A DNA stretch of 64,000 nt from contig NC_013524.1 in assembly GCF_000024985.1 (NCBI RefSeq), positions 62,001 to 126,000 of the forward strand, written 5' to 3'. Under the pieces are notes generated by a model that saw nothing but the letters and a program-made list of their open reading frames with translations, made no database searches and had not been told where the DNA came from. Positions 5,246 to 30,188 of the stretch are shown piece by piece. The position numbers and the translations under genes are program-made. Numbering within the stretch: the stretch's first letter is position 1; every line of letters begins with the position of its first letter. Origin of the DNA: Sphaerobacter thermophilus DSM 20745. GTDB taxonomy: Bacteria > Chloroflexota > Chloroflexia > Thermomicrobiales > Thermomicrobiaceae.

Positions 5246-5965
5246 CTATCGCCGGCTCGGGGCGCCGCTCGGCACCGGTCCGGGCCCGCCCGCAAACTCG
5301 GCCAGTCCCCACAGATCGCGCCAGATGAAGTCGGGCTGCTCCGGGCCGGGTGGGGCTTCGACGTGGCGGTTGACCCAGGCGGTGTGGAATCCGAGGCGCT
5401 GGGCCGGGCCGATGTCGTACTTGAAGCCGAAGGCGACGTGCAGGATGCGCTCGGGTGGCTCGCCGACCTGCTCCAGCAGGTAGCGGAAGCCCTGTTCGGA
5501 CGGTTTGTAGGCCCCGACATCCTCAGCCACGATGACCCGCTCGAAGGGAAGGTCGAGATGCCGCAGCGTGTGCGCCATGATGTCGCGGTCCGTGTTCGAG
5601 AGGATCACAAGCCGCAACCCTGCTGCGTGGGCCTGGAGGAGGGCCGGGCGGGTGTCGGGGAACGGCTGCCAGCTCCGCATCGAGCGAACGAGATCCTCGC
5701 CGTAGGCCGGGTCCCAGGAGTAGCCGCGCTCTTCGGCCCAGCGCCGCAGGCTCTCAGTCAGGATCTCCTTGTACGGGCGGTAGCCTCCGGCCAGGAGGTC
5801 GAACTGGATCGCCTCCCAGCGCTCGCGGAGCGTCATGCCGGGGTCGGGTGACGGATCCCCGAGCCGGAGCGCAAGCGAATAGAGGAACGAGGCCGCGCCA
5901 CCCTCCCAGTCGATCAGCGTGCCGTAGCAGTCGAACGTCGCGACGCGGATGTCCTCCCGCCTCAC
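5246..5965 (-). CDS. haloacid-dehalogenase-type HAD hydrolase
   Basis: This 239-residue HAD superfamily enzyme has motif I FDCYGTLIDWE (nucleophile Asp ~11) and motif II ILSNTDRD (~residue 122). A lysine in GAYKPSEQGF (motif III) and an acidic motif IV region GFKYDIGPAQRLGF follow. The cap insertion and motif pattern match type II 2-haloacid dehalogenases, but these motifs also occur in phosphatases. Usual motif IV in dehalogenases is S/A-N-x-x-D; here it is FGFKYDI, so the substrate is open. The GTG at 5965 is preceded by GGGAGG at good spacing. It is a single gene and cytoplasmic. Confidence 0.82.
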   Translation of the reverse strand: MRREDIRVATFDCYGTLIDWEGGAASFLYSLALRLGDPSPDPGMTLRERWEAIQFDLLAGGYRPYKEILTESLRRWAEERGYSWDPAYGEDLVRSMRSWQPFPDTRPALLQAHAAGLRLVILSNTDRDIMAHTLRHLDLPFERVIVAEDVGAYKPSEQGFRYLLEQVGEPPERILHVAFGFKYDIGPAQRLGFHTAWVNRHVEAPPGPEQPDFIWRDLWGLAEFAGGPGPVPSGAPSRR

Positions 5966-6079
5966 CCGGAACCTCCCTTCGGTGCGGAGTCCATGCCGTC
6001 CACGCGCGTATTGCAGGCACAGACATCATACGGCAGCGCAGGGCATGCGTGCTCCACGAACCGAGGGAACAGATGAGAC

Positions 6080-6114
6080 GACAACGAGGGAGGCTCCACA
6101 GCCTCCCCCGTTGT
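6080..6114. terminator. long hairpin, probable bidirectional terminator
   Basis: GACAACG-A-GGGAGGCT, a CCAC loop, then AGCCTCCC-C-CGTTGTC gives a 16-bp stem with one A/C mismatch. It lies just beyond the 3' end of the FAD oxidase gene (6186, minus strand) and before the HAD gene. The U-tract is weak. Confidence 0.6.
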
Positions 6115-6185
6115 CCCCAACCCTCCTGTGCGTTTTCAGAACTCCGGCCTGCCAGCGGGCCCCAGGTCGGACGCCGTCGGTATCG

Positions 6186-7595
6186 TCACCGCGGCGGGAT
6201 GTTCTGGTTGACGCGGAACAGATTGGCCGGGTCGTACTTCGCCTTGATCGCGGCAAGCCGGTCGTAGTTGTCCCGATAGGTGGCTCGGATGCGCTCCGCG
6301 CCCTCCTCCATCATGAAGTTGATGTAGGAGCCGCCGGCGGAGTAGGGGTGTAGCGCCTCCCAGTACTCGCGCGCCCACTTGGTGATCCGGTCCTTGTCGG
6401 CCGGGTCGGGGCTCACGCCGACGATGACCTGGACCCACTTGGCATCGCGGTAGCTCCAGGCGGTGGTGTCCTTCGGAATCCGGTTTGCGGCGCCGCTGAT
6501 GGCGTAGATGTGCGACCCCGAGAGGAACGTCGGCAGCTTGGTGCCGTACTCAATTTCCGTGGGGATCGCCTCGTCTGGGATGTCGTTGAAGAAGTCGGCC
6601 TTCCAGTACCACTGCAGGCCCGGAGGGTAGAGCGCATCGAACAACTGCTGGAGCACGGGCAGTGGCATCGGCCCGACCCAATCGAGCGCCGGCGGGCCAA
6701 ACTGCGCCCGGATCGGCGCGAAGGTGGCGTCCGCTTGCTCCATCGGGCCGGTATAGGTCCAGATGACGCCGCACATCGTCTTGTTGTGCAGTTCCTCCGG
6801 GAACGGCTCCGCCGGCGGCACCTTCAGGAAGGCGAAGAAGCCGCTGAGATCGTCCGGCTGGGGCGGCAGGAAATCGCGGAACCAGCGCAGCACATCGCCT
6901 GCCTTGTCGGCGTCCCAGAGCATCGGGCCGGCGTATACGGTGCTGACCGGGTGCAGCCGGAACAGGAACGAGGTGACCACGCCGAAGTTGCCCCCTCCGC
7001 CACGCAGTGCCCAGAAGAGGTCGGAGTTCTGCTGGGCATTGGCCGTGACGAAGCGCCCATCCGCCAGGACGACGTCTGCTTCGAGCAGGTTGTCGATCGC
7101 CAGCCCAAACCGGCGGGTGAGGTGGCCGAGCCCGCCTCCGAGCGTGATCCCGCCGATGCCGGTGAGCGAGACGGTGCCGCTGGGGGTCGCCAGGCCGAAG
7201 GCGTGCGTGGCGTGGTCCACATCGCCGAGCGTGGCACCCGCCTCGACCCGCGCGGTCCGCGCCTCGGGGTCGACCCGGACGCTGTTCATCTCCGACAGGT
7301 CGATGACCAGCCCATCGTCGCAGACGCCGAGGCCTGCCCCGTTGTGCCCGCCACTGCGGACGGCAAGGAGCAGGCCGTGCTCGCGGGCGAAGTTCACAGA
7401 CTCGATGACGTCGGCCACGTCGACGCAGCGGGCGATCATCAGTGGATGCTTGTCGATCATGGCGTTGTAGACCTTGCGGGCCTCGTCGTAGTCCGGGTCT
7501 CCCCGGCGGATGAGTTGCCCGCGCAGCGACTGAGCGAAGGCCTGGACGTCGGCCTCCGGAAGCTCACGCATCTCGGTTGCCGTCTGCAGCGTCAT
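6186..7595 (-). CDS. berberine-bridge-enzyme-like FAD-linked oxidase
   Basis: This 469-residue protein has a PCMH-type FAD domain: VRSGGHNGAGL carries the histidine that binds the flavin 8-alpha position, then GATLGDV, GIGGITLGGGLGHLTRRFGL and ALRGGGGNFGVVTSF. The C-terminal BBE segment contains GGSYINFM and the typical ending YDPANLFRVNQNI. The second covalent link of plant BBEs uses a cysteine in a CPTVG-type loop. Here that loop reads SLTGIGG, so a single histidyl link is expected. Such enzymes oxidise sugars, alcohols or alkaloid-like compounds with O2. An AAGGGGGTG site precedes the ATG at 7595. The LuxR-type regulator immediately upstream may control it. Confidence 0.88.
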   Translation of the reverse strand: MTLQTATEMRELPEADVQAFAQSLRGQLIRRGDPDYDEARKVYNAMIDKHPLMIARCVDVADVIESVNFAREHGLLLAVRSGGHNGAGLGVCDDGLVIDLSEMNSVRVDPEARTARVEAGATLGDVDHATHAFGLATPSGTVSLTGIGGITLGGGLGHLTRRFGLAIDNLLEADVVLADGRFVTANAQQNSDLFWALRGGGGNFGVVTSFLFRLHPVSTVYAGPMLWDADKAGDVLRWFRDFLPPQPDDLSGFFAFLKVPPAEPFPEELHNKTMCGVIWTYTGPMEQADATFAPIRAQFGPPALDWVGPMPLPVLQQLFDALYPPGLQWYWKADFFNDIPDEAIPTEIEYGTKLPTFLSGSHIYAISGAANRIPKDTTAWSYRDAKWVQVIVGVSPDPADKDRITKWAREYWEALHPYSAGGSYINFMMEEGAERIRATYRDNYDRLAAIKAKYDPANLFRVNQNIPPR

Positions 7596-7819
7596 CGGTG
7601 CACCCCCTTCGCTCCTGGGTGCTCCCCAGGGTGATAGTGTCGGCGCGTCATGCTCGATGCTGGCAGCATAGGGAAACCGCGTGGCGTGAGATATCCGGGG
7701 ATTCCCGGTATTTTCCCCTGGGTTTGGGGTGTCGACGGGGAGGGTGTGGCGTGGGCAGGCGCCATTCGCTGCGTGGCAGGTCCGCTGCAGGCTGGGAAGG
7801 TTTGGCGCGGTGGTCGGTG

Positions 7820-7841
7820 TCCGGGGGTTCACCCCGGGATC
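7820..7841. repeat. REP-like CCGGGGGTTCACCCCGG element (degenerate copy)
   Basis: CCGGGGGTTCACCCCGGGA is a degenerate copy of the GCCCGGGGG-TTxA-CCCCCGGGC palindrome also found at 41088, 48951, 49195 and 62873. It lies between the oxidase start and the regulator stop. Confidence 0.5.
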
Positions 7842-7867
7842 GCGCCGACTGTGGACAGTAGGGTTCG

Positions 7868-10267
7868 TCACAGCTCGGCGCTGGCGCCGGACGGCTGGCC
7901 GGAGGTGGATGAGGCGACCCAGGCTGCCAACTGGGCGCGGGAGCGGAGCCCGAGTTTGGTCAGGCAGTTGCTGACGTGCATCTCGACCGTCTTCTCGCCG
8001 ATGGAGAGGTCTGCGGCGATCTCACGGTTCGTCTTCCCAAGCGCGACGTGGAGGGCGACCTCGTACTCGCGCCGGGTCAACCCGCCGAGTTGCGTGCGCG
8101 GTCGACGGTGGAGCCGGCTGGGGCCGGGTGGGGTAGCGAGGAGGCGTTGGGCCCGCTCGACGGCTTCGGCGAGTGTCAGCGCCCGGCCCTGGGTCCAGGC
8201 CGGCTCGAAGGCGGCATCGTCCAGCATGCCACGCACGACCCGGACGCTCCGCTCGTACTCGGCGCGGTCGGCCGGCTCCCACTGGACGCCGATGGAGGCG
8301 CGCAGGGCATCGGCCGCGCCCAGGAGTTGCGCGGCCTGGATGGCCGTGGCCCAGCCTCCGGAGATCGCCCCCGCGATGCCGATCAGGCAGATCGCGGTGC
8401 CGTGGGTGTTGCGCAGCTCCCAGGAGAGGGACAGGCTCTCGGCGAAGAGCGCCAGCGCGCGGGGCCGGTCGCCCAGGCGTGCGACGACCGGTGCCAGGTT
8501 GTGGAGCACCATCGCGATGCGCTCCTGCTCGGCCAGGGAGCGCCAGATCACCAGGCTCTCTTCGTAGCGGGCCGCGGCAGCGGCATCGTCCCCGCGCAGC
8601 CGCGCGATCTCCCCCAGCCGGTTGAGCGTGCGCGCCACGGTGCGCCGAGCGCCGACCCGCCACCCGATCGCCAGCGCGTCCTCGAAGTAGGTCGTGGCCC
8701 GTTCCACGTCGCCGGTGATGAAGTGGAGGCTGCCGAGGTCGAGCAAGGTCTGGGCGCGGAGCGCCTCGTCGTCCACCTCGTGATAGAGCACGAGGTTGAC
8801 CTCGTGAAGCGCGCGGGCACGGTCAATTTCGCCCTGCCGCACCAGAAGTGCAGCCAGCGCGTCACGCGCCTGGGCCGTGACCAGGGGCGGCGCGTCACCG
8901 GGCATGGCGAGGATCTCGTCCAACCATCGCTGCCCGGTGCCGAGGTGGTCGTGGATGAGCCAGAAGTTCTCGAGGGCGGCGCCGAAGCGGAGCGCGGCTT
9001 CCTTGTCTCCGTGATCAATGAGCCAGCGGAGCGCCGTGCGCAGGTTGCCCACCTCCTGCTCAAGTCGCTCGATCCAGCGGGCCTGGGTGGCGTGGTAAAG
9101 GTGAGCCGCCGCCGTCTCGACGAATGACAGGAAGTAGGTCGCGTGCCGCTCACTGAGTCTGTCCCAGTCGCCGCTGGCCTGCAGGTGCCCAAGGGCGTAC
9201 TCGCGGATCATGCTGAGCATGCCGAATCGGGGCGTGCCGTCGGGACTGGTCGTGCGCTGGATCAAGCTCTTCTCGAGGAGCGATGTGAGGCCGTCGAGCA
9301 CGGCCTGCCGCGCCTTCGGGCTTTCATCCGCGGCGCAAATGGCCTCGGCCGCGTCGAGCGTCCAACCGTCGACGAAGATGGCGAGCTGCTGGAAGCGGCG
9401 GCGCTCATCCGGTGCGAGGAGCCCGTCGCTCCAGGCGATGGCGTCGGAGAGTGTTTGGTGCCGGGCGGGGACATCGCGGGCGCCGTCGCGGAGTTCCGAC
9501 AGGCCGCGCTCCAGGCGCTCGGACAGCATGGCCGGTGAGAACATCTTGAGTCGGGCCGCTGCCAGCTCGATCGCGAGCGGGATCCCCTCAAGGCGAAGGC
9601 AGATCGCAGCGATGCTTGCGGCGTTGTCGGCCGTAAGGGAGAACGTCGGGTCCACCGCCCGTGCCCGGTCCACCAGCAGCGCCACCGAGGAGTAGCCCGC
9701 GAGTGTGGCAGGCGATGCAGAGATGGACGGAGGCAGAGCCAGGGGCGGGACCGGCCACTCATGCTCGCCGCGGACGCGTAGGACGGCGCGGCTGGTCACG
9801 AGCGCGACGAGGTGGGGGCAGCGCGTCAACAGCTCCGCGATGTCCGGAGCCGCGCCGACGACCTGCTCGACGTTGTCCAGAAGCAGCAGCGTCTCCGTGC
9901 CCCACAGCGCGGCGACGAGCCGGTCGAGGAGGGGCTGGCCGTGCGCGGTCGGGACTCCGAGCGTCCGCGCCAACACCGAGAGGACCCAGGCAGGGTTGCG
10001 CACCGCGGCGAGTGGCACGTAGTAGACCTCACCGCCGGTCCGCTGCTGCCACTCGCTCGCCACGGCCAGCCCGAGCCGGGTCTTCCCGATCCCTGGCGGC
10101 CCGGTCAGTGTCACCAGTCGCGCGCCGTCGCGGGTCAGCAGTCGCAGGAGAGCGTCCAGCTCCGCTTCCCGTCCGATGAGCGGGGTCAGGGGCTGCGGGA
10201 GCCCGCGCGTGCCGGCGCGCATCAGCGGCGAGATGGGGATCGGCTGGTTCTCGGGCACGTTTCCCAT
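7868..10267 (-). CDS. LuxR-family regulator with NTPase and TPR-like domains
   Basis: This 799-residue protein is a large signal-transducing transcription factor. Residues ~25-300 form an NB-ARC/AAA-like ATPase with Walker A GPPGIGKTRLG and Walker B TLLLLDNVEQV. The middle (~400-680) is alpha-helical with TPR-type repeats (for example LLDLGSLHFITGDVERATTY). The last ~65 residues are a LuxR/GerE helix-turn-helix (LTRREYEVALHVALGKTNRE, then TVEMHVSNCLTKLGLRSR). The architecture is like MalT/LAL regulators. Ligand sensing through the helical repeats and ATP-dependent DNA binding are family knowledge; the target is not shown. The neighbouring FAD oxidase, 272 bases downstream on the same strand, is the obvious candidate. 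The ATG at 10267 begins just before the conserved region. Confidence 0.87.
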   Translation of the reverse strand: MGNVPENQPIPISPLMRAGTRGLPQPLTPLIGREAELDALLRLLTRDGARLVTLTGPPGIGKTRLGLAVASEWQQRTGGEVYYVPLAAVRNPAWVLSVLARTLGVPTAHGQPLLDRLVAALWGTETLLLLDNVEQVVGAAPDIAELLTRCPHLVALVTSRAVLRVRGEHEWPVPPLALPPSISASPATLAGYSSVALLVDRARAVDPTFSLTADNAASIAAICLRLEGIPLAIELAAARLKMFSPAMLSERLERGLSELRDGARDVPARHQTLSDAIAWSDGLLAPDERRRFQQLAIFVDGWTLDAAEAICAADESPKARQAVLDGLTSLLEKSLIQRTTSPDGTPRFGMLSMIREYALGHLQASGDWDRLSERHATYFLSFVETAAAHLYHATQARWIERLEQEVGNLRTALRWLIDHGDKEAALRFGAALENFWLIHDHLGTGQRWLDEILAMPGDAPPLVTAQARDALAALLVRQGEIDRARALHEVNLVLYHEVDDEALRAQTLLDLGSLHFITGDVERATTYFEDALAIGWRVGARRTVARTLNRLGEIARLRGDDAAAAARYEESLVIWRSLAEQERIAMVLHNLAPVVARLGDRPRALALFAESLSLSWELRNTHGTAICLIGIAGAISGGWATAIQAAQLLGAADALRASIGVQWEPADRAEYERSVRVVRGMLDDAAFEPAWTQGRALTLAEAVERAQRLLATPPGPSRLHRRPRTQLGGLTRREYEVALHVALGKTNREIAADLSIGEKTVEMHVSNCLTKLGLRSRAQLAAWVASSTSGQPSGASAEL

Positions 10268-10404
10268 GCCGGGGCTCCGGTGCGTAATAGGTCGCGGTGG
10301 GTTGCGCCTCGTACCGATTAGACTAGCACTCACTATGAGCCGCTTCCAGGGGGTAGCGGGGGTGTTGGAGTTTGACGAGGCCGACCCCGTCGTGCAGTGG
10401 CTGT

Positions 10405-10427
10405 GATCCTGAGCGAAGCGAAGGATC
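10405..10427. repeat. GATCCTGAGCGAAGCG-type dispersed repeat
   Basis: GATCCT-GAGCGAAGCGA-AGGATC has 6-bp inverted ends around a GAGCGAAGC core. Another GATCCTTCGACTC fragment follows at 10459, and a half copy is at 3413. I recall this sequence as a repeat found in many unrelated high-GC genomes. It lies between the LuxR gene start and the DUF4132 gene end. Confidence 0.6.
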
Positions 10428-19130: not shown

Positions 19131-21524
19131 CTACGGATACGGCGTGCCGTAGCGCTGGTGCAGCGCCCAGGCGCCGATGCGGCCGAGCAGCACGTCGAAC
19201 CGCGGCGGGAACTCGCCGGGGTGCCACTCGAAGCGCGCCCGCTCGAAGTACTGCACCGTGTAGAGCTCGCCGGTATCGGGGTTCCGCTCGACGAACTCCT
19301 CGCTGATCGGATAGCCGTAGATCGCCAACCCTCCGAACGCCTCCCAGTAGGACCGGAAGCCGAAACAGAGGTTGTGGCCGGTCGCTTCGAAGTAGGTGCA
19401 GCTATCCGCCGCGCCGGGATTCGCCCGCTGGAACGGCGGTTCGTCGCCGCGCCCGGCGGTCATGTCGCGCCCGAGCAGGCCGAGGAGGACGTCGTAGCGC
19501 TCCGGCCAGACGCCGGGATGCCACTCAAAGCGGGCGCGCTCGAAGTACTGAACGGTCAAGCCGTTCTCGACGAACTCCTCGGTCACCGGGTAGCCGAAGG
19601 TCGCCAGGCCACCGAAGTTCTCCCAGTAGGAGCGGAACCCGGCGCAGAGGTTGTGCTGCGTCTGGGGGAAGAAGATGCAGCCAGCCTTCGGCTCAGCAGG
19701 CTGAGCCGGCGGGAACTGACCGGGCGGCGGTGAAACCACGGTCCAGGTGATCTCCACGCTGTCGCTCAGGTCGGTTCCAGCCACCGTCGCCGTCACCGTG
19801 TCGTCCCCCTCGTAGGTGCCGGTGTAGCTGAAGGTGGCCTCGCCGTCCTCGTTCGTAGTTCCCTCGCCGGACTCGTCGTGGATGCCGTCGACGTCGAACT
19901 GCACCGTCACATCGGCGACCGGATCGCCCTCGGCGTCCGTGACTGTCGCGGTCAGGGTGACCTCCTCACCGGCCGTGGGCGAAGTGTTCGAGGCCACGAG
20001 TTCGATCGCTTCGACCGCGGGCGGCGGTGAAACCACGGTCCAGGTGATCTCCACGCTGTCGCTCAGGTCGGTTCCGGCCACCGTTGCGGTTACCGTGTCC
20101 GTTCCGGCGAAGGAGCCGGTGTAGCTGAAGGTGGCTTCGCCGTCCTCGTTCGTGGTTCCCTCGCCGGACTCGTCGTGGATGCCGTCGACGTCGAACTGCA
20201 CCGTCACATCGGCGACCGGATCGCCCTCGGCGTCCGTGACTGTCGCGGTCAGGGTGACCTCCTCACCGGCCGTGGGCGAAGTGTTCGAGGCCACGAGTTC
20301 GATCGCTTCGACCGCGGGCGGTGGGGTGGGCGTGCTGACGATCGTGACGGACGTCTCGACCGTTTGAGCATCGACCGTGGCGGAGATCGTCGCCTCGCCG
20401 GCGGCCTCGGCGGTAAAGGTCGTGGTGGCCGCGCCGGCTGCGGTGCTGGTGTTCGCCGGGTCGAGCGTGCCGGCGTCCGCAGGATCGACGTCGAAGTCCA
20501 CCAGGATGCCGTTGGGCACCGTGCCGTCGCTGCTGGTGTCGTCGCCGTCGCTGTTGGTCGTGAGCGATGCGGTGACGGTCGCCTCCTCGCCGCTCTCGAG
20601 CTCGGCGGTGTCGGTCGTCACCGTGAGGGTGAGCCACGGGTCGAGGTTCACTGGGCCGGCAACGGTGTTGCAGCCGTCCTCACCGGGACCCGCGTTACAG
20701 CCCCACCAGTTGTTGGTGGCGTCGAGGACCGTCGTTGACTGGTTGTTGATCCCCATGCCATCGACGTTGCCCGCGATGCGGTTGAACGCGATGCGGTTGC
20801 CACTCCCAGTGAATTCCGAGAGGAAACGGATCCCGGCACCGCCCTCCGGCTCCAGGGACTTGACGTTGTTGCCGGTGATGTTGTTCGAGGCGATGGTGAC
20901 GTTGTCTGCTCGCGCCTCGAGCAGGATACCGTTCCCGTTGCCGCTGATGGTGTTATTGGTGATGGTGGCGCCGTCAACCCCCGAGGACACGTAGATTCCC
21001 GTCGGGTAACCAGTGATGACCGTGTTCCGGACCGTCGAGCCGCTGCCCTGGTAGCCCCAAGCGATCGCGATCGAGTTTTCTACCCCTGCCGGTCTCCGGA
21101 TGGTGAAGCCCTCGATCGTCGTATCGGCGCTTGTCAGGGTGATGGTATAGGACTTGTTCCCCGCAACACCGGTGATGCTCGTGCGGTCGACGCCGGCGCC
21201 GCTGAGCGTCAGGCCGCTCTTGTCGGCCGGCAGCGTAAGGTCCTCACGGTAGGTACCGGCCCCAACGTGGATCGTGTCGCCGCTCTCGGCCACGTCGATC
21301 GCGTGCTGGATCGTGGCGCACGGGTTGTCCTCGTCGAGGCAGTCATTGCCGTCGTCATCCCCACCGACGGCGACCCAGCGGTCTGCCTGGGCGCTGGCCG
21401 GCCCGGCAGGAACCAGTGCCGCGCCGAGTGCGGCGATCAGCGCCAGGACGCTGACCAGCCTGATGGCGCGCGCCAGCACACCGCTCGGGCGTCGCGCGCG
21501 CCGCGCCCGAACCGAACTCACCAT
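19131..21524 (-). CDS. large secreted beta-helix protein with Ig-like repeats and two C-terminal wall-type modules
   Basis: This 797-residue exported protein has a signal peptide (LVSVLALIAALGAALVPAG, cleaved near ASAQA). It has a right-handed beta-helix of ~230 residues (GGDDDGNDCLDEDNPCATIQ onward, many NNTISGNGNG-type turns) and a short Ig-like region. Two near-identical ~99-residue Big-1-like domains follow (ELVASNTSPTAGEEVTLTAT). The C-terminus has two ~85-residue units with GHNLC.GFRSYWE.FGGLA.Y, GYP.SEEFVE and VQYFERARFEWHPG. The last units share the GYP-x-E...VQ.FER core with the proteins at 4093 and 38453. A cell-surface or adhesin-like role is inferred. GAGGGACAG precedes the ATG. 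Confidence 0.82.
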   Translation of the reverse strand: MVSSVRARRARRPSGVLARAIRLVSVLALIAALGAALVPAGPASAQADRWVAVGGDDDGNDCLDEDNPCATIQHAIDVAESGDTIHVGAGTYREDLTLPADKSGLTLSGAGVDRTSITGVAGNKSYTITLTSADTTIEGFTIRRPAGVENSIAIAWGYQGSGSTVRNTVITGYPTGIYVSSGVDGATITNNTISGNGNGILLEARADNVTIASNNITGNNVKSLEPEGGAGIRFLSEFTGSGNRIAFNRIAGNVDGMGINNQSTTVLDATNNWWGCNAGPGEDGCNTVAGPVNLDPWLTLTVTTDTAELESGEEATVTASLTTNSDGDDTSSDGTVPNGILVDFDVDPADAGTLDPANTSTAAGAATTTFTAEAAGEATISATVDAQTVETSVTIVSTPTPPPAVEAIELVASNTSPTAGEEVTLTATVTDAEGDPVADVTVQFDVDGIHDESGEGTTNEDGEATFSYTGSFAGTDTVTATVAGTDLSDSVEITWTVVSPPPAVEAIELVASNTSPTAGEEVTLTATVTDAEGDPVADVTVQFDVDGIHDESGEGTTNEDGEATFSYTGTYEGDDTVTATVAGTDLSDSVEITWTVVSPPPGQFPPAQPAEPKAGCIFFPQTQHNLCAGFRSYWENFGGLATFGYPVTEEFVENGLTVQYFERARFEWHPGVWPERYDVLLGLLGRDMTAGRGDEPPFQRANPGAADSCTYFEATGHNLCFGFRSYWEAFGGLAIYGYPISEEFVERNPDTGELYTVQYFERARFEWHPGEFPPRFDVLLGRIGAWALHQRYGTPYP
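19731..20324. repeat. tandem 297-bp duplication inside the beta-helix protein gene
   Basis: Two copies begin with TGAAACCACGGTCCAGGTGA at 19731 and 20028, exactly 297 bases (99 codons) apart. They are almost identical, differing mainly in the ~100 bases nearest each start. They encode the two Big-1-like domains. The similarity suggests recent duplication or ongoing gene conversion. Confidence 0.85.
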
Positions 21525-22009
21525 GAACTGTCCCTCGCTTCCTACTCCGCCGCCGCGGTCCACAACGTGCCACCAGGACCAAGGGCGGGCCCCGAGCTGT
21601 GGTGTTGTCGCTCTGCTGGAGTCCTACGGTGTCTGTCGACGCACGGGGGGCTGCGGCGGTCCACGTGCCATCGTGGTGCGGGAACGAACCGGGGCCAGAC
21701 GCCGGACGAGTGTGCCGCGTACGCTCATCGGTCGACATCCTCCTGTCCAGCACTCGCGTGCGCGTGGTTTCTTCACACCGTTGACGACGACTGCGGACAG
21801 GATGATCTGTGATCGTTGCAACATCTGTGCCAGCTTCCGCGTTTGTTTCGCGCTGACGCATCGGGCGGGTTACCCGCCGGCCACGAATGTACGGCAGGCA
21901 GGTTCCCTTCCGGTTCCCGGTGAGCACTGGAGTGGGATTGGAGGGTACACAGAGTGAAGAAGCGTTTGGGGTGCCGGGCCGGGGCATTGCGCCCCGGCCC
22001 GGCCGCGGA
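21525..22009. other. 485-bp intergenic region
   Basis: It holds the upstream region of the beta-helix gene and, at its right end, a terminator hairpin for the M20D gene. GGCGGGTTACCCGCC near 21866-21880 is a further short palindrome. Short open frames here have no ribosome site or recognisable motif. Confidence 0.45.
21973..22003 (-). terminator. GC hairpin after the M20D hydrolase gene
   Basis: GCCGGGCCGGGGC, an ATTGC loop and GCCCCGGCCCGGC give a 13-bp perfect stem just beyond the stop codon at 22010 on the minus strand. A T-tract is lacking. Confidence 0.65.
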
Positions 22010-23458: not shown

Positions 23459-23896
23459 CTACTCCGAGTCGTATACTTCCAGGTGTTCCCTGATCCATTC
23501 TGCGATCTGGTCCACCGTGAGCTGGTGCTTTGCGACGTTGATCAGAAGGGAGAACTTCTCGTCTTCGGTCGCTACGATCCTCCAACCGTTCGCGGCTAGA
23601 AACCCCTCCGCCACCACACTGGCAATTCGCTTGTTGCCGTCGATAAACGGGTGTCCCCGGATCAACCCCCAAAGCAGGTGTGCCGCCTGCATGACCAGAT
23701 CAGCGCCCGCGTAAAACGCCGCCTGGCGCGGTCGCTGGAGTGCCGAATCGAGCACATCCCTGTCTCGGACATAATTCGGCGCGGCCTCTGGGGGGATCCC
23801 GGTCACATCGGCATAAAGCTTAAGGACATCCTCGACCGTCGGATAAACGGGCGCCCCCCAGCACTCGCGCCCCTTGCTAGGACTCACCTCGGTCAT
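23459..23896 (-). CDS. doc: Doc-type Fic-fold toxin
   Basis: This 145-residue protein has the Fic motif in Doc form, HPFIDGNKRIASVVAEGFLA (residues ~81-100), with Lys where AMP-transferring Fic enzymes have Gly. Doc toxins phosphorylate elongation factor Tu and stop translation. The N-terminal YPTVEDVLKLYADVTGIP and middle AAFYAGADLVMQAAHLLWGL are typical of the family. The ATG at 23896 overlaps the antitoxin gene by 20 bases, so expression is coupled. The antitoxin is AbrB-like rather than the classical Phd. Coding sequence here looks slightly less GC-rich than its neighbours, which fits acquisition by transfer. Confidence 0.85.
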   Translation of the reverse strand: MTEVSPSKGRECWGAPVYPTVEDVLKLYADVTGIPPEAAPNYVRDRDVLDSALQRPRQAAFYAGADLVMQAAHLLWGLIRGHPFIDGNKRIASVVAEGFLAANGWRIVATEDEKFSLLINVAKHQLTVDQIAEWIREHLEVYDSE

Positions 23897-24134
23897 ACCG
23901 CTTCAGCCGCTCGTACAGCTCGCGGTTCCGCTCAATCACCCTGCGCGACGCCTCAAGGAAATCGTGCCGGGCCCGCGGCGTGATCGCGACTGGCTCGACA
24001 ATGAGGCATCCGTTCTGCTCGTCGGCTGTCACCTGGACATGCGACCCAATCTCCAGGTTGAACTTCTTCACCAGGTCGGGCGGCAACGTAATCACGGTGC
24101 TGTTGCCGTCACGACGCACCTTCACCAGCGCCAC
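23877..24134 (-). CDS. AbrB/MazE-type antitoxin
   Basis: This 85-residue protein starts with a swapped-hairpin DNA-binding domain (VKVRRDGNSTVITLPPDLVK then LEIGSHVQVTADEQNG). A charged helical tail (ARHDFLEASRRVIERNRELY) probably wraps the toxin. The GTG at 24134 is chosen because GGGAGG lies 6 bases upstream; in-frame ATGs further up have no site and would overrun the palindromes described below. It overlaps and precedes doc, the normal antitoxin-first order. Autoregulation through the upstream inverted repeats is inferred. Confidence 0.82.
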   Translation of the reverse strand: MALVKVRRDGNSTVITLPPDLVKKFNLEIGSHVQVTADEQNGCLIVEPVAITPRARHDFLEASRRVIERNRELYERLKRYDRGES

Positions 24135-24660
24135 AGCAGTCCTCCCATCTTCCGTACTCTCGGAAGTGGGGACGGTCACCATAGTCCCCACGCGAGGGTG
24201 CCATGCAAGGGTGACGTTGTCAACTCATCCGTGACGTTCGTCTGTCGCCTCGCGTGACTTCGTGGTGGCTGGCGACGCGGCGTGGTGATGACGCCTCCTA
24301 CTGTCTGGTGATCTGCAACTGGGGGGCGCCTGATTCGCGATCGCCCCGAGGAGGCGTTGGAGTAAGGAGAGGCGCTGAAGGGGTCACGATGTGCCCGAAC
24401 ATGCGCCAGGCGATAGCAGAATCATGTCCGGCCGTCGGCGCCGGTCCAGGCGTCTGGGGAGATGGTGTGGGCGCGGTATCCTAAGTAGGCATTAATCGCG
24501 CGGCGTGCCGCGACAGCGGGGGCAGGACGCCGCGCCGCGTGAACCCGGGGGATTGGCGAGGCCGCTGAGCCCGACGGTAGGGCCACGAGCGGCCGATTGA
24601 GGGGGAGGCGTGAGGGCAGGGCGCCCGGTCGCTGAGCCTTCCTGGGAGGGCCGAACCGTT
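24135..24660. other. 526-bp divergent intergenic region
   Basis: It separates the antitoxin gene (minus) from the first GNAT-like gene (plus). Besides the antitoxin palindromes, it must hold the promoter of the five-gene biosynthetic cluster. No gene, riboswitch or tRNA was recognised. Confidence 0.45.
24149..24190. promoter_or_regulatory. two inverted repeats upstream of the antitoxin gene
   Basis: CTTCCG-TACTCT-CGGAAG (24149-24166) and TGGGGAC-10-GTCCCCA (24167-24190) lie back to back, 15-56 bases upstream of the GTG start. Adjacent operators of this kind are usual for autoregulated toxin-antitoxin operons. No binding evidence exists. Confidence 0.5.
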
Positions 24661-25707
24661 ATGGTCGTGCTGCGGAACTACGAACCGGGCGATCTGGTCC
24701 AGATCAGCCGGCTACGAGCAGCCGTCTACTCCCGTCATGATGATGAGCGGCTGGCGTGGCATGCGTCGGTCTGGCATTGGCTGGAGACGCACCCGCTCGC
24801 CCCGGAGCATCTCCACCGCTGGGTCCTGGCGGACGGTGACCGCATTGTCGGCTTCCTGGCCGCGGTGCCGCAGTACTACCGCATCGCGGGGAAGCGCGTC
24901 GTCGCGCACACCCCCACCGACTACATGGTCGATCCCGATTACGGGTTCCACGCGGTCAGCTTGATGCGTACGTTCTTCCGGACCGTGGAGAACTGCGTCA
25001 GTGTCGACTGGTTGCCGTCGGTGATCCGCGTGCAGACCTGGCTGGGTGCAACCCAAGTGGCCAATCTGCGGTACGCCGCCAAGATTCTGACCACGGCCAA
25101 GCTGCCGGTGTCGCTACCGGGTCCGGTCGCCGGTGGTGTGAATCTGGGATTGCGCGCAGCTGACCGGCTACTGACTCTGGGGCGGCAGAGCGTGACGGTC
25201 AAGGTGCTCGACTCGTTCGACGAGCGCTTCGACCGCTTTTTCGAGTCGCTGACGGCGCATGTTCCCTGCCTCGCGGAGAAGGACGCGGCCTTCTTGCAGT
25301 GGCGCTACGGACTCTCGTCGCCACAACCCGCGGGGCCGCTGCTGGGCGCGCTCAACGGGGACGAGTTGGTGGGCTATGCCGTCTTACGCGTGACCGACAC
25401 CGACCGGTCCGGGTACATCATGGACCTCACGGTGCGGCCCGGCCGCCAGGACGTGGCCGCCGCGTTGCTGCGTGCCTCGATTCACCATCTCCGGCAGAGA
25501 GGTGCGCATCTGATTCGGTACCGGTTCTTGCCGTCGTCGCTAGCGCCGCTGCCGCGCGATCTGTGGCGTTTGGGGTTCTTCACACGCAAGCAGACGCATA
25601 CCTTGCAGGTGAAGTTCGCCGACCCGGAGTTGCAGTCGGTGGCGACGAACCCGCTGAGCTGGGCGTACAGCGCCGGTGACGGGGAGTTGAGTTTCTGGGT
25701 TGAGTAA
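24661..25707 (+). CDS. GNAT-like acyltransferase, paralogue 1
   Basis: This 348-residue protein has an N-terminal acetyltransferase-like part (VVLRNYEPGDLVQISRLR, then WVLADGDRIVGFLAAVPQYY) and a second GNAT-like part near residues 230-320 (LVGYAVLRVTDTDRSGYIMD, LTVRPGRQDVAAALLRASI). The whole length is paralogous to the next gene: both have 348 residues when the aligned ATGs are used (24661, 25929), and they share FHAV.LMR.FFRTVENCV, TTAKLPVSLP and LQVKFADPEL. A GTG at 24610 is an alternative start but has its Shine-Dalgarno site too close. The following ACP and ligase genes suggest the acyl donor may be ACP-bound. The substrate is unknown. Confidence 0.75.
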   Translation: MVVLRNYEPGDLVQISRLRAAVYSRHDDERLAWHASVWHWLETHPLAPEHLHRWVLADGDRIVGFLAAVPQYYRIAGKRVVAHTPTDYMVDPDYGFHAVSLMRTFFRTVENCVSVDWLPSVIRVQTWLGATQVANLRYAAKILTTAKLPVSLPGPVAGGVNLGLRAADRLLTLGRQSVTVKVLDSFDERFDRFFESLTAHVPCLAEKDAAFLQWRYGLSSPQPAGPLLGALNGDELVGYAVLRVTDTDRSGYIMDLTVRPGRQDVAAALLRASIHHLRQRGAHLIRYRFLPSSLAPLPRDLWRLGFFTRKQTHTLQVKFADPELQSVATNPLSWAYSAGDGELSFWVE

Positions 25708-25928
25708 GGGATTGCGGTCCGAACGCTACTGGGCATGACGCCCTGCGTCCCGCTTCTGCCCGCGGTTGCTCCGGTCGACTCGAACAGGACCTTCAGCCTG
25801 GTAAGTCCCTTAGCGAACGCGCAAGGTTATATATGGTTAGATGGTGCTAGAGATAAGCGCCGTCAGATGCATGCACGCGGTGCAACGGTAACTCGGAGAA
25901 CCGAGTCCTGGTGAAGGACCAGAATATC

Positions 25929-26975
25929 ATGGCAGTAGTGCGGGAATTCGAACCGGCTGACCTCGATGGCGTGAAAGAGTTGCGCGCACGCGCGTTCTGG
26001 CATGCGACCCCGGAACGCCTGGAGCGGGATGCGTCGATCTGGCGGTGGCTGGAGACGCACCCGCTTGCCGCGGAACATCTGCATCGCTGGGTGCTGGTGG
26101 ACGGCGACCGGATCGTCGGCTTCCTCGGTGCCATCCCGCAGTACTACCGTATCGCCGGGCGACGCGTGGTAGCCCATGCCCCCGGCGAGTACATGGTGGA
26201 CTCCAATTATGGGTTCCACGCTGTCTTGCTCATGCGCGCGTTCTTCCGCACGGTGGAGAACTGCGTGACCTGCGATTGGCACCCGGAGGTGCTGCGCGTC
26301 CAGGGCTGGCTCGGCGCGACCGACGTGGTAGACCTGGAAGCCTTCACCAAGCCGCTCACCACGGCCAAGCTGCCGGTATCGCTACCGCGTCCGGTCGGAG
26401 CTGTCGTAAATCTCGGGTTACGGGTGGTAGACTCGATCCTCACCACTGGTCGAGATCGGTTTGAGATCAAGGTACTCGACGACTTCGACGATCGCTTCGA
26501 CCGCTTCTTCGAGGCGGTCTCGTCCCAGGTTCCGTGCATCCCTGAGAAGGACGTTGCCTTTCTGCGCTGGCGATATGGTGAGTCGTCGCCTCACACCGCC
26601 AGCGCGATCCTCGCGGCACTCGACGGCGATGATCTGCTCGGCTATGCAGTATTGCGGGTCACTCCGACGGACCGGGCGGGTCTCATGCCCGACGTTACGG
26701 TCTTGCCGGGGCGGCACGATGTGGCGCGGGAGCTGGTGCGGGCGGCGGCCCGGTATTTCCGGCGGGCCGGCGCTACGGTGATCTGGTATCGTTTCCTGGC
26801 GTCGCCCGTTGGGCCCCGACCGTCTGACGTCCGGCGGTTGGGTCTTATTCCGCGCAAGCGGCGACCCCGCTTGCAGGTAAAGTTTGCTGATCCCGAGCTA
26901 CACCAGATGGCGGTGAACGCTGCCAACTGGGCGTTTAGCTACGGTGATGAAGAAGTAGGCTTCTGGGATGAGTGA
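25929..26975 (+). CDS. GNAT-like acyltransferase, paralogue 2
   Basis: This 348-residue protein aligns along its whole length with paralogue 1: MAVVREFEPADLDGVKELRA, WVLVDGDRIVGFLGAIPQYY, FFRTVENCVTCDWHPEVLRV, LGYAVLRVTPTDRAGL, and LQVKFADPELHQMA near the end. The ATG at 25929 has AAGGA 10 bases upstream and matches the paralogue's start. A gap of 221 bases, with an AT-rich TTATATATGG (25825-25834), separates it from the first copy and could contain a second promoter. Next comes the ACP gene, 72 bases later. Two copies suggest two sequential acylations or heterodimer formation; this is inference. Confidence 0.75.
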   Translation: MAVVREFEPADLDGVKELRARAFWHATPERLERDASIWRWLETHPLAAEHLHRWVLVDGDRIVGFLGAIPQYYRIAGRRVVAHAPGEYMVDSNYGFHAVLLMRAFFRTVENCVTCDWHPEVLRVQGWLGATDVVDLEAFTKPLTTAKLPVSLPRPVGAVVNLGLRVVDSILTTGRDRFEIKVLDDFDDRFDRFFEAVSSQVPCIPEKDVAFLRWRYGESSPHTASAILAALDGDDLLGYAVLRVTPTDRAGLMPDVTVLPGRHDVARELVRAAARYFRRAGATVIWYRFLASPVGPRPSDVRRLGLIPRKRRPRLQVKFADPELHQMAVNAANWAFSYGDEEVGFWDE

Positions 26976-27047
26976 CGGGGTGCGCCCGGCGCAGCGTGCG
27001 CGTACAGCTACATTCTCTGCATCCGCCAAGAGAGGAGCGGCTTCGAC

Positions 27048-27296
27048 ATGACGGTGGACGGCGCCGTGAAGGGTCCGATTCGCGAGTGGTTGATGGCCAA
27101 CGCCACCGGCGGCCGGCCGGTGAGTGACGACCAGCCGCTCATCCGAGACGGCCTGCTGACCTCGCTGATGGTGGTGGAACTGGTCATGTTCCTGGAACAG
27201 CAGTTCGGCGTGGTCATCGACGACATGGACGTGAGCGAGGAAAACTTCGCCTCGATCCAGGCAATCGCTGAATTGGTGGATCGGAAGCGCGCATGA
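27048..27296 (+). CDS. acyl carrier protein
   Basis: This 82-residue acidic helical protein has a 4'-phosphopantetheine site in RDGLLTSLMVVELVMFLEQQ; the serine of TSL is the likely attachment residue, in place of the usual DSL. The rest fits a four-helix carrier (FGVVIDDMDVSEENFASIQA). A GAGAGGAG site precedes the ATG. Its last four bases overlap the ligase start (ATGA), so the two are made together, as expected for a carrier loaded by its ligase. It is not next to fatty-acid synthesis genes, so a dedicated role in the cluster is likely. Confidence 0.85.
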   Translation: MTVDGAVKGPIREWLMANATGGRPVSDDQPLIRDGLLTSLMVVELVMFLEQQFGVVIDDMDVSEENFASIQAIAELVDRKRA

Positions 27297-28867
27297 CGCA
27301 TCGGGCAGTCTTCACGTTACATGACATGGCCCGCAACGCCGCCGAGCGTGACCCGAGCGGCATCGCGATCGTCTCCGGGTCGGATCGGTACACCTTCGCG
27401 GATCTGCTCGGCGCGGCCGAGGCCATGGCGGCAGCGCTGGTCGAGCACGGCGTGAGGCTGGGGGATCGCGTCGCCATCTACGCCGAGAAATCGTTCGTGG
27501 CGGTGGCAGCCATGGTGGCCGCGTCCCTGGCCGGGGCGGCCTATGTGAACGTCAACCCGCTCCTCAGGGCGCGTCAGGCCCTGCACATCCTGCGCGACTG
27601 CGACGTGCGGCTCGTCATCGGCGACGCGGACAAGCTCGCCGCTCTCGGCGAGGAGGCGCCCGAGCGCGCCTTCGTCATCGGTGACAAGGTGCCCGATGTC
27701 CCGCGCGCCGGGGGCTGGCTTACGGTTGCCGAGGTGCTGCGCGGTGAGCACGGTCGCGCGGCTCTGCCGCGGGTTCAAGAGCACGACATGGCGACCATCA
27801 TCTACACCTCCGGCTCGACCGGCCTGCCCAAGGGCGTCGTCTTCAGCCAGCGGAACGTCGTCGTCGGGGCCGAGATCGTGGCGACGTACCTGGAGAACAC
27901 GAGCGACGATCGCATTCTGTCGGTGCTGCCGTTCAGCTTCGACTACGGCATGAACCAGTTCACCACCGCCCTTCTGGTGGGTGCGACGCTCGTGCTCCAG
28001 CGCTCGGCATTCCCGGCTGACGTGATCCGCTCGCTGCGTGAGTACGAGATCACGGGCCTTGCCGGGGTGCCGCCGCTCTGGGGCCTGCTGGTGCAGATGG
28101 GCCGGGAACTGGAGGAGCGCCCGCTCACGTCCCTGCGCTACATCACCAACTCGGGCGGTCAGGTGCCGGCGGCTCACGTGGCTGAGCTCCGGCGGCTGTT
28201 GCCGACCACCAAGATCTACCTCATGTACGGACTGACCGAGGCCTTCCGCTCGACCTACCTGCCGCCTGACGAGCGGGACCGCGGCCCGGCCTGCATCGGG
28301 AAGCCGATTCCCAACACTGACATCTGGGTGCTGAACGAGAAGAACGAGCACTGCGCGCCGGGCGAGATCGGCGAGCTGGTGCATCGGGGGCCAACCGTGT
28401 CGCTCGGCTACTGGAACCGGCCGGAGGACACCGCAGAGCGGTTCCGCCCCAACCCGTTTGCACCGCCTGGGCTGCCGCACCCCGAGTGGGTGGTCTATAG
28501 CGGCGACCTGGTGTGGCGGGATGAGGATGGCTTCCTGCACTTCGTGGGGCGGAAGGACAACCTGATCAAGACCCAGGGCTACCGCGTGAGCCCCGAAGAA
28601 GTGGAGGACGTGCTCATCGGCACCGGGCTGGTGCAGGAAGCCTGCGCCTTCGGGATGCCCGACCCCGACCACGGACAGCACATCGTCGCGGTGGTGGTCC
28701 CGCGCGGGGACCAGGAGGTGTCCGCCGACGAGGTGCGCCGCGCCTGTGTGCGGCAGGCACCACCTTACATGGTGCCCAAGGTGATCCAGATCCATCAGGG
28801 GATCTTGCCCCGGACGCCCTCGGGCAAGATCGACCGTCAGGCGGTGCGCGATGCCTACGCAGGTTGA
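27293..28867 (+). CDS. AMP-forming acyl/amino-acid:ACP ligase
   Basis: This 524-residue ANL-superfamily adenylating enzyme has the P-loop IIYTSGSTGLPKGVVFSQRN, the adenine site YLMYGLTEAFRSTYLPP, the hinge region YSGDLVWRDEDGFLHFVGRK, and the catalytic lysine in LPRTPSGKIDRQAVRDA. ANL enzymes activate a carboxylic acid as acyl-AMP and pass it to CoA or a carrier thiol. The overlap with the ACP gene makes ACP the natural acceptor. It resembles the ligases named 'exosortase A system-associated', which also travel with an ACP and a PLP decarboxylase. The actual acid is not predictable. It overlaps the decarboxylase gene by 17 bases. Confidence 0.87.
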   Translation: MTHRAVFTLHDMARNAAERDPSGIAIVSGSDRYTFADLLGAAEAMAAALVEHGVRLGDRVAIYAEKSFVAVAAMVAASLAGAAYVNVNPLLRARQALHILRDCDVRLVIGDADKLAALGEEAPERAFVIGDKVPDVPRAGGWLTVAEVLRGEHGRAALPRVQEHDMATIIYTSGSTGLPKGVVFSQRNVVVGAEIVATYLENTSDDRILSVLPFSFDYGMNQFTTALLVGATLVLQRSAFPADVIRSLREYEITGLAGVPPLWGLLVQMGRELEERPLTSLRYITNSGGQVPAAHVAELRRLLPTTKIYLMYGLTEAFRSTYLPPDERDRGPACIGKPIPNTDIWVLNEKNEHCAPGEIGELVHRGPTVSLGYWNRPEDTAERFRPNPFAPPGLPHPEWVVYSGDLVWRDEDGFLHFVGRKDNLIKTQGYRVSPEEVEDVLIGTGLVQEACAFGMPDPDHGQHIVAVVVPRGDQEVSADEVRRACVRQAPPYMVPKVIQIHQGILPRTPSGKIDRQAVRDAYAG

Positions 28868-30188
28868 CCGGGCACTGGCCGCAGCTGAGCGGCTGGGAGG
28901 CTGGCAGAACGGCGTCTTCAGCCCTGGGGGTGTAGCCCTGGCCGATGTCGTCGATCGTGCCGGGACGCCCTGCTACCTCTACCACGGCGGCGTGGTGCTG
29001 GAGCAGCTCGAACGTGTGCGGGCCGCCGTCGGACCGGATGTCGAGGTCGCTTACTCGGTCAAGGCCAACCCCAGCCTGGCGCTGACCCAGCTCCTGGCTC
29101 GGGCCGGAGCCGGCGCCGAGGTGGCCTCGGCGGGTGAGTTGCACCTGGCGCTTGCGGCCGGGGTCGACCCGGAGCGTATTGTCTTCGCCGGTCCGGGCAA
29201 GACCGAGGACGAGCTGCGGCGCGCCGTTCGCGCGGGTATCTTCGCGGTCAACGTCGAGTCGCTGGGTGAGATCGAGCGGCTGGCCCGCGTTGCCGAGGGG
29301 GAGGGGCGCGACGTCGGCGTCGGGCTGCGGATCAACCCCGCCCAGCCGCTGATCGGCTCGCACATGCGCATGGGTGGCCGGCCGACCCAGTTCGGGGTCG
29401 ACGAGGCGGACCTGGAGCGGGCCGTCGCGCTGGTCGAGTCCAAGCCGCGGCTCCGGCTGCGCGGGCTTCACGTCTACACGGCGACGCAGGTGTTCGATGC
29501 CGACGCGCTCGTGGAGCACGCCCGCAACGTCTTCGACCTCGCAGCGCGTGTTGCGGACGCGGCGGGCCGGCCGCTGGAGATGATCGACTTCGGTGGCGGG
29601 TTCGGGATTCCCTACTTCGAGCACCTGGAACCGTTCGACCTCGACCGGTTCGGCGCCGGGTTCCGCCCACTCCTGGACGAGCGGCTCTCCGACCCGCGAC
29701 TGGCCGGTGCCCGCTTCATCCTGGAGCTCGGCCGCTATCTGGTCGCCGAGGCGGGCGTCTACCTGACGCGCGTTGTCGACGTGAAGCAGTCGTGGGGCAA
29801 GACCTTCGTCGTGACCGACGGCGGGATGAACCACCACATCAGCGCGACCGGGAACTGGGGGCAGGTCTTCCGCAAGCCGTACCCGATCCTCAACGTCAGC
29901 GCCGATCCGGCGGCCGCGCTGGAGCAGACGGATCTGGTCGGCCCATGCTGCACGCCGCTGGACATGTTCGGCACGGACATTCAGATGGCACTGCCGCAGC
30001 CGGGTGACATCATCGGCGTCTTCCTCAGTGGCGCGTACGGCTACAGTGTCAGCAGCCTGAAGTTCCTGAGTCACCCTGAGCCGGCCGAGGTACTGGTCTG
30101 GCAGGGCGAGGTCCACATCCTTCGCCCGGGAGGCCGACCGGAGGACGTGCTGGCGGGGCAGAGCGGACTGCCCACCGAGCAAGGGTAG
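28851..30188 (+). CDS. fold-III PLP-dependent decarboxylase (LysA/ornithine decarboxylase type)
   Basis: This 445-residue enzyme has the PLP lysine in VAYSVKANPSLAL, then AGAEVASAGEL, the histidine of GLHVYTATQ, DFGGGFGIPY, ELGRYLVAEAG, the active-site cysteine region GPCCTPLD, and GAYGYSVSSLKFLSHP at the C-terminus. This order is that of alanine-racemase-fold decarboxylases of diaminopimelate, ornithine or arginine. Canonical GPxCExxD is changed to GPCCTPLD, and EPGR to ELGR, so the substrate may differ from diaminopimelate. Its place after ACP and ligase suggests that it produces the amine, or acts on the carrier-bound amino acid. It is the last gene of the run. Confidence 0.87.
   Translation: MPTQVDRALAAAERLGGWQNGVFSPGGVALADVVDRAGTPCYLYHGGVVLEQLERVRAAVGPDVEVAYSVKANPSLALTQLLARAGAGAEVASAGELHLALAAGVDPERIVFAGPGKTEDELRRAVRAGIFAVNVESLGEIERLARVAEGEGRDVGVGLRINPAQPLIGSHMRMGGRPTQFGVDEADLERAVALVESKPRLRLRGLHVYTATQVFDADALVEHARNVFDLAARVADAAGRPLEMIDFGGGFGIPYFEHLEPFDLDRFGAGFRPLLDERLSDPRLAGARFILELGRYLVAEAGVYLTRVVDVKQSWGKTFVVTDGGMNHHISATGNWGQVFRKPYPILNVSADPAAALEQTDLVGPCCTPLDMFGTDIQMALPQPGDIIGVFLSGAYGYSVSSLKFLSHPEPAEVLVWQGEVHILRPGGRPEDVLAGQSGLPTEQG

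Follow-up and report, generated by a model that had tools for sequence, protein, structure and literature searches.

A candidate carrier-protein-dependent route to the beta-alanine bridge of Sphaerobacter thermophilus murein

What is the function of an operon that joins an acyl carrier protein (ACP), a ligase and a decarboxylase to two acetyltransferase-like proteins in S. thermophilus? The window, by which we mean the whole stretch of 64,000 nucleotides analysed here, holds five intact, co-oriented genes on the + strand. The first two, GNAT1 (24661..25707) and GNAT2 (25929..26975), form a tandem pair of paralogues of 348 residues each, 62% identical without a gap over all 348. GNAT1 has a PF13527 GNAT domain at its N-terminus and a PF00583 GNAT domain at its C-terminus, and is the proposed beta-alanyl transferase. 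There follow the genes for an ACP of 82 residues (27048..27296; PF00550), with Ser39 in the motif GLLTSL as the presumed phosphopantetheine serine, an ANL ligase (27293..28867; PF00501 and TIGR03098), and a fold-III PLP decarboxylase (28851..30188; PF02784 and PF00278), the ends overlapping by 4 bp between ACP and ligase and by 17 bp between ligase and decarboxylase. The initial annotation had described this arrangement and named the four families, and both descriptions stand, the family calls being upheld by Pfam and NCBIfam matches. Ser39 aligns across all the trio ACPs. We also considered the OlsHI/AmcB type for the ACP and rejected it, the matches to those models falling far below cut-off.

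The neighbours of the operon in the window encode an M20 peptidase, a Fic/MazE pair, and MgtC-like, MFS and M28 proteins. As had been claimed from the start, no polysaccharide gene is among them and no exosortase is near; indeed PF09721 has no match anywhere in the S. thermophilus genome (3,993,764 bp, two replicons). The Fic/DOC-family protein and a MazE-like antitoxin (23459-24191, - strand) lie directly upstream of the operon; in the genome Bu17 the interval from the M20 peptidase to the GNAT gene (L043) has no ORF for the Fic/DOC protein. The gene at 19131-21563 on the - strand encodes a large protein that looks secreted and contains beta-helix and bacterial Ig-like (Big_1) domains.

What does the trio of ACP, ligase and decarboxylase make? 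Among solved structures the decarboxylase is closest to BtrK (E 1e-87), the enzyme that removes CO2 from glutamyl-ACP in butirosin synthesis. Where the S. thermophilus enzyme has GPCCTPLD and ELGR, BtrK reads GPLCTPED and ESGR, and other ACP-linked relatives read GPLCTPxD and ELGR; CTP.D is common to all of these, and diaminopimelate decarboxylases have CES.D or similar. The motifs had been quoted correctly and read as the sign of a new substrate. That reading falls away: since BtrK and the ACP-linked relatives share CTP.D, the seemingly changed positions mark the kind of enzyme that acts on an ACP-bound substrate. The gene setting is also that of the BtrK/VinO kind, with genes for a free ACP and a ligase as neighbours. 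The likeness to the exosortase A trio holds for the ligase, which scores 631.6 bits against TIGR03098 (cut-off 592), and fails for the decarboxylase, which scores 426.7 bits against TIGR03099 (cut-off 478.45) and belongs to a separate clade. In the tree, the wall-type decarboxylases form one clade with support 100/100, apart from the polysaccharide-cluster and BtrK-like enzymes. A BtrK-like clade with a GPLCTGLD-type motif and no adjoining ligase was seen in one Chloroflexota family (L013, L016, L018, L020, L022 and L027).

In the specificity region of the ligase, VinN is the closest relative among solved structures. In VinN the amino and carboxyl groups of (3-methyl)aspartate are bound by D230, S299 and R331 (PMC7756342, PMC11253843), which align with D217, S287 and R319 of the ligase; F231 and K330 of VinN correspond to Tyr218 and Phe318, and the beta13-beta14 loop has the same length in both. 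BolO has been assigned to aspartate through the same residues (PMC7756342). Judged by these positions, the ligase code points to aspartate as the loaded amino acid. As the alpha-carboxylate is the group that leaves, the amino acid must be held via its side-chain carboxylate, and VinN-VinL-VinO is a tested precedent for side-chain loading followed by decarboxylation on the carrier (PMC11284099). It thus seems very probable, as far as sequence comparison can tell, that the trio makes a beta-aminoacyl-ACP, most likely beta-alanyl-ACP: the ligase is a predicted L-aspartate (beta-carboxyl)--ACP ligase, and the decarboxylase is predicted to turn isoaspartyl-ACP into beta-alanyl-ACP. The steps up to beta-alanyl-ACP follow from family logic and are well supported.

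Where would a beta-alanyl group be used? The murein of S. thermophilus S 6022T is of type A3beta, with beta-alanine cross-links, and acid hydrolysates of this one strain gave Glu:Orn:Ala:beta-Ala:Mur:GlcN of 1:1.1:1.2:1.6:0.9:1.1 (PMC3035262). The predicted product of the trio matches the bridge amino acid published for the species. If we may speculate, each bridge could hold one or two residues, given the two GNATs and the ratio of 1.6 beta-alanine to one glutamate. Murein types containing amino acids that no tRNA carries, such as beta-alanine, have stood in chemotaxonomy lists for decades; in the literature that we searched, no account was found of the route by which beta-alanine enters the bridge. 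To our knowledge beta-alanine has no cognate tRNA, and so a tRNA-dependent Fem route would not serve for it. We think it probable that the trio serves the murein bridge.

Does the gene order recur, and in what company? In the sister genome HOG56 GNAT2 is reduced to a fragment; GNAT1 (91%), ACP, ligase and decarboxylase are intact there and 91-97% identical to their S. thermophilus counterparts. A genome from another family of the order (G302) has, all in one direction, YkuD L,D-transpeptidase - FemAB - MurJ - FemAB - GNAT - ACP - ligase - decarboxylase, with 47-64% identity over the last four genes (about 48% to GNAT1). In a genome from a further family of the phylum (G444) the order is Mur ligase - ACP - ligase - decarboxylase - MurJ, the trio being 53-60% identical; no GNAT or FemAB-like gene was found on that contig. 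Because the block recurs in another family of the order and in another of the phylum, the clustering of these genes exceeds chance. The initial annotation had asked whether the order returns without exosortase A. The trio does exist without exosortase. The block recurs with the GNAT in G302 and as the trio in G444, and the homologues repeat their order in consistent loci and are not scattered. Bu17 (G316) has a GNAT and the ligase and decarboxylase, the GNAT and the ligase being on different contigs. In all, three genomes have the GNAT linked to the trio. Of the 61 genomes of the order, four have the GNAT family, and these are also the four with a high-scoring TIGR03098 ligase, a coincidence of 1 in 521,855 if the genomes are taken as independent draws, but three of the four belong to one genus. 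A strict-pattern contig scan that included the GNAT pair matched only two Sphaerobacter MAGs.

More distant relatives of the GNATs are found in several settings. On a Rubrobacter plasmid a GNAT with 50% identity is flanked by VanW, peptidoglycan-binding and sortase E genes; the trio is absent beside it. In two Azospirillum, remote GNAT relatives have in their vicinity an ACP and a ligase that shares 40% identity with the Sphaerobacter ligase, with no decarboxylase, so that GNATs of this family accompany ACP-ligase pairs. The Azospirillum polysaccharide cluster (L114, 6749-13068; L113) includes ACP, ligase, AsnB, NadE-like and remote GNAT genes, and perhaps brings about an aspartyl or asparaginyl decoration of a glycan. 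The ORF immediately 5' of the Shinella ACP matches the GNAT profile weakly (E 0.003). Two sets of candidates were rejected: Chloroflexota ligases L100-L106, which are TIGR03098-like and mostly have an adjacent ACP, are without the decarboxylase that a further trio would have, and a Shinella GNAT-like ORF (L045:4903-5988) does not match GNAT1.

What has become of the usual bridge enzyme, FemAB? With weak matches counted, FemAB is present in 52 of the 61 genomes of the order. In Bu17, G126 and G320 a FemAB gene is flanked by genes for a HEAT-repeat protein and a Mur ligase, the conserved order being HEAT - FemAB - Mur ligase - WD40. S. thermophilus and HOG56 keep the flanking genes, FemAB is gone, and about 200 bp remain. 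The remnant, on the correct strand, retains residues like RDESGxxxVEYYRxVLTMTG, to be compared with RDKFGIHRVEYYRDVLTTFG of FemAB. The two scars score 29.6 and 30.4 bits against a shuffle maximum of 23.1, and for each gap none of 1000 dinucleotide shuffles scored as high. S. thermophilus and HOG56 otherwise have weak FemAB matches only (E about 4e-4); those of S. thermophilus are divergent FemAB-like proteins on chromosome 1 (C1:1263811-1267823), and no full FemAB was found elsewhere in its genome. At L076 (G000:C1:1258000-1272000), positions 5641-10418, the tandem Acetyltransf_6/FemAB-like genes adjoin those for an ATP-grasp protein, a formyltransferase, Wzz and a DegT aminotransferase, and this is likely a polysaccharide locus. 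Bu17 retains FemAB alongside the GNAT, ligase and decarboxylase, which counts against the pathway proposed below.

Are the GNATs, then, a form of FemAB? They have no match to PF02388 (FemABX), matching PF00583 and PF13527 instead; hhalign, with shallow profiles, gave GNAT and FemAB a probability of kinship of 0.1%, so that none is detectable by this comparison. Against the PDB the GNATs find only GNAT acetyltransferases, at E>0.01. The two Pfam GNAT matches in GNAT1 may point to a tandem GNAT fold; the AF2 model, built from four sequences, was unusable (pLDDT 37).

Our proposal is that the operon encodes an ACP-dependent, tRNA-independent pathway for a beta-alanine interpeptide bridge. The ligase would adenylate L-aspartate at the beta-carboxylate and load it on the holo-ACP, and from the resulting isoaspartyl-S-ACP the PLP decarboxylase would remove the alpha-carboxylate, leaving beta-alanyl-S-ACP. 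The beta-alanyl group would next be passed by one or both GNATs to L-ornithine, at its side-chain amine, within a precursor of peptidoglycan, either lipid II or UDP-MurNAc-pentapeptide. Beta-alanine would in this way form the cross-bridge in the A3beta murein, with the GNATs standing in for the tRNA-type FemAB enzyme that has been deleted. Linkage, co-occurrence, wall context and FemAB loss suggest the GNATs as transferases and ornithine as their acceptor. The Azospirillum ACP-ligase pairs lend the GNAT step further support. Against the proposal speak the separate contigs of GNAT and ligase in Bu17, the G444 contig with its trio but no GNAT, the Rubrobacter plasmid GNAT with no trio beside it, and the lack of detectable sequence kinship to FemAB. 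For the whole mechanism, GNAT transfer included, our confidence is moderate, and we favour it.

Other uses of the trio can be envisaged. The GNATs might decorate a secreted glycan or an exopolysaccharide with the beta-alanyl group, something that may also happen in exosortase-A and rhizobial polysaccharide clusters; related trios do lie in polysaccharide clusters of Shinella, Sinorhizobium and Aureimonas, and remote GNAT relatives are also met within such clusters. We think this unlikely, as the operon has no polysaccharide gene near it, the wall-type decarboxylases are a clade of their own with MurJ, Mur ligase, FemAB and L,D-transpeptidase as context, and the murein of the species is known to contain beta-alanine (PMC3035262). 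It is also quite unlikely that a different transferase, such as the tandem FemAB/Acetyltransf_6-like proteins of chromosome 1, builds the bridge from beta-alanyl-ACP while the GNATs do something else. Those genes exist, and G444 has a trio with no GNAT on its contig; however, they lie amid Wzz, ATP-grasp, aminotransferase and formyltransferase genes, a polysaccharide setting, and it is the GNAT, linked in three genomes and co-occurring in four, that accompanies the trio.

The remaining two readings look beyond polymers. The initial annotation envisaged a small product: an amino acid loaded on the ACP, decarboxylated, N-acylated and released. Loading and decarboxylation are predicted here too and probably take place, and it is true that VinN/VinL/VinO and BolO/BolC/BolN serve natural-product pathways and that amine N-acylation is common among GNATs. 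A free N-acylated metabolite is nevertheless very unlikely, given the beta-alanine of the murein and the murein-gene context of the relatives, which it would leave unexplained, the FemAB loss, and an operon that has neither PKS or NRPS nor a release enzyme. One might suppose instead that the trio supplies free beta-alanine for pantothenate and CoA, as PanD (PF02261) is absent from the S. thermophilus genome. None of the 21 genomes of the family has PanD, however, and only three of them have a high-scoring ligase; the GNATs and the wall context would also go unexplained. We set this PanD replacement aside as very improbable.

How does the proposed bridge pathway compare with known systems, and what would it mean? 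The individual reaction types are already known; what would be new is their use, via a carrier protein, for peptidoglycan bridges, a route not found in the literature searched. In VinN-VinL-VinO, which makes the vicenistatin starter unit, an ANL ligase joins an acid of the aspartate type to a free ACP via the side-chain carboxylate, and PLP decarboxylation then gives a beta-aminoacyl-ACP, as predicted here; BolO-BolC-BolN of the bolagladins does likewise and has been proposed to use L-aspartate. The Vin and Bol products prime a PKS or NRPS, whereas the Sphaerobacter operon has GNATs and a peptidoglycan context and no PKS or NRPS. In the butirosin side-chain system, BtrJ-BtrI-BtrK, the carrier is loaded by an ATP-grasp ligase; BtrK shares the CTP.D motif with the Sphaerobacter decarboxylase, but in Sphaerobacter loading would be by an ANL ligase whose code is of the aspartate type. 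The exosortase A-associated TIGR03098/TIGR03099 set has the same ACP-ligase-decarboxylase composition; the Sphaerobacter decarboxylase is below the TIGR03099 cut-off and in a separate clade, and the genome has no exosortase. That set has long lacked an assigned function, and the present proposal suggests one. FemAB and FemX do the job proposed for the GNATs, placing an amino acid on a stem-peptide side-chain amine, and both have GNAT-type domains; the Fem enzymes depend on tRNA, whereas the Sphaerobacter donor would be an aminoacyl-ACP, and sequence kinship went undetected. The FemAB scar offers a case of gene replacement. If the proposal is true, natural-product chemistry, that of beta-aminoacyl-ACP, has been put to use in primary wall synthesis, and a wall can use an amino acid that is carried by no tRNA and made on the carrier itself. 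We would put it at about an even chance that, beside the tRNA-dependent FemABX enzymes and the ATP-grasp ligases, peptidoglycan bridges are built by a third class of system, in which a new GNAT family carries out carrier-protein-dependent transfer and whose unit, without the decarboxylase, acts on polysaccharides elsewhere.
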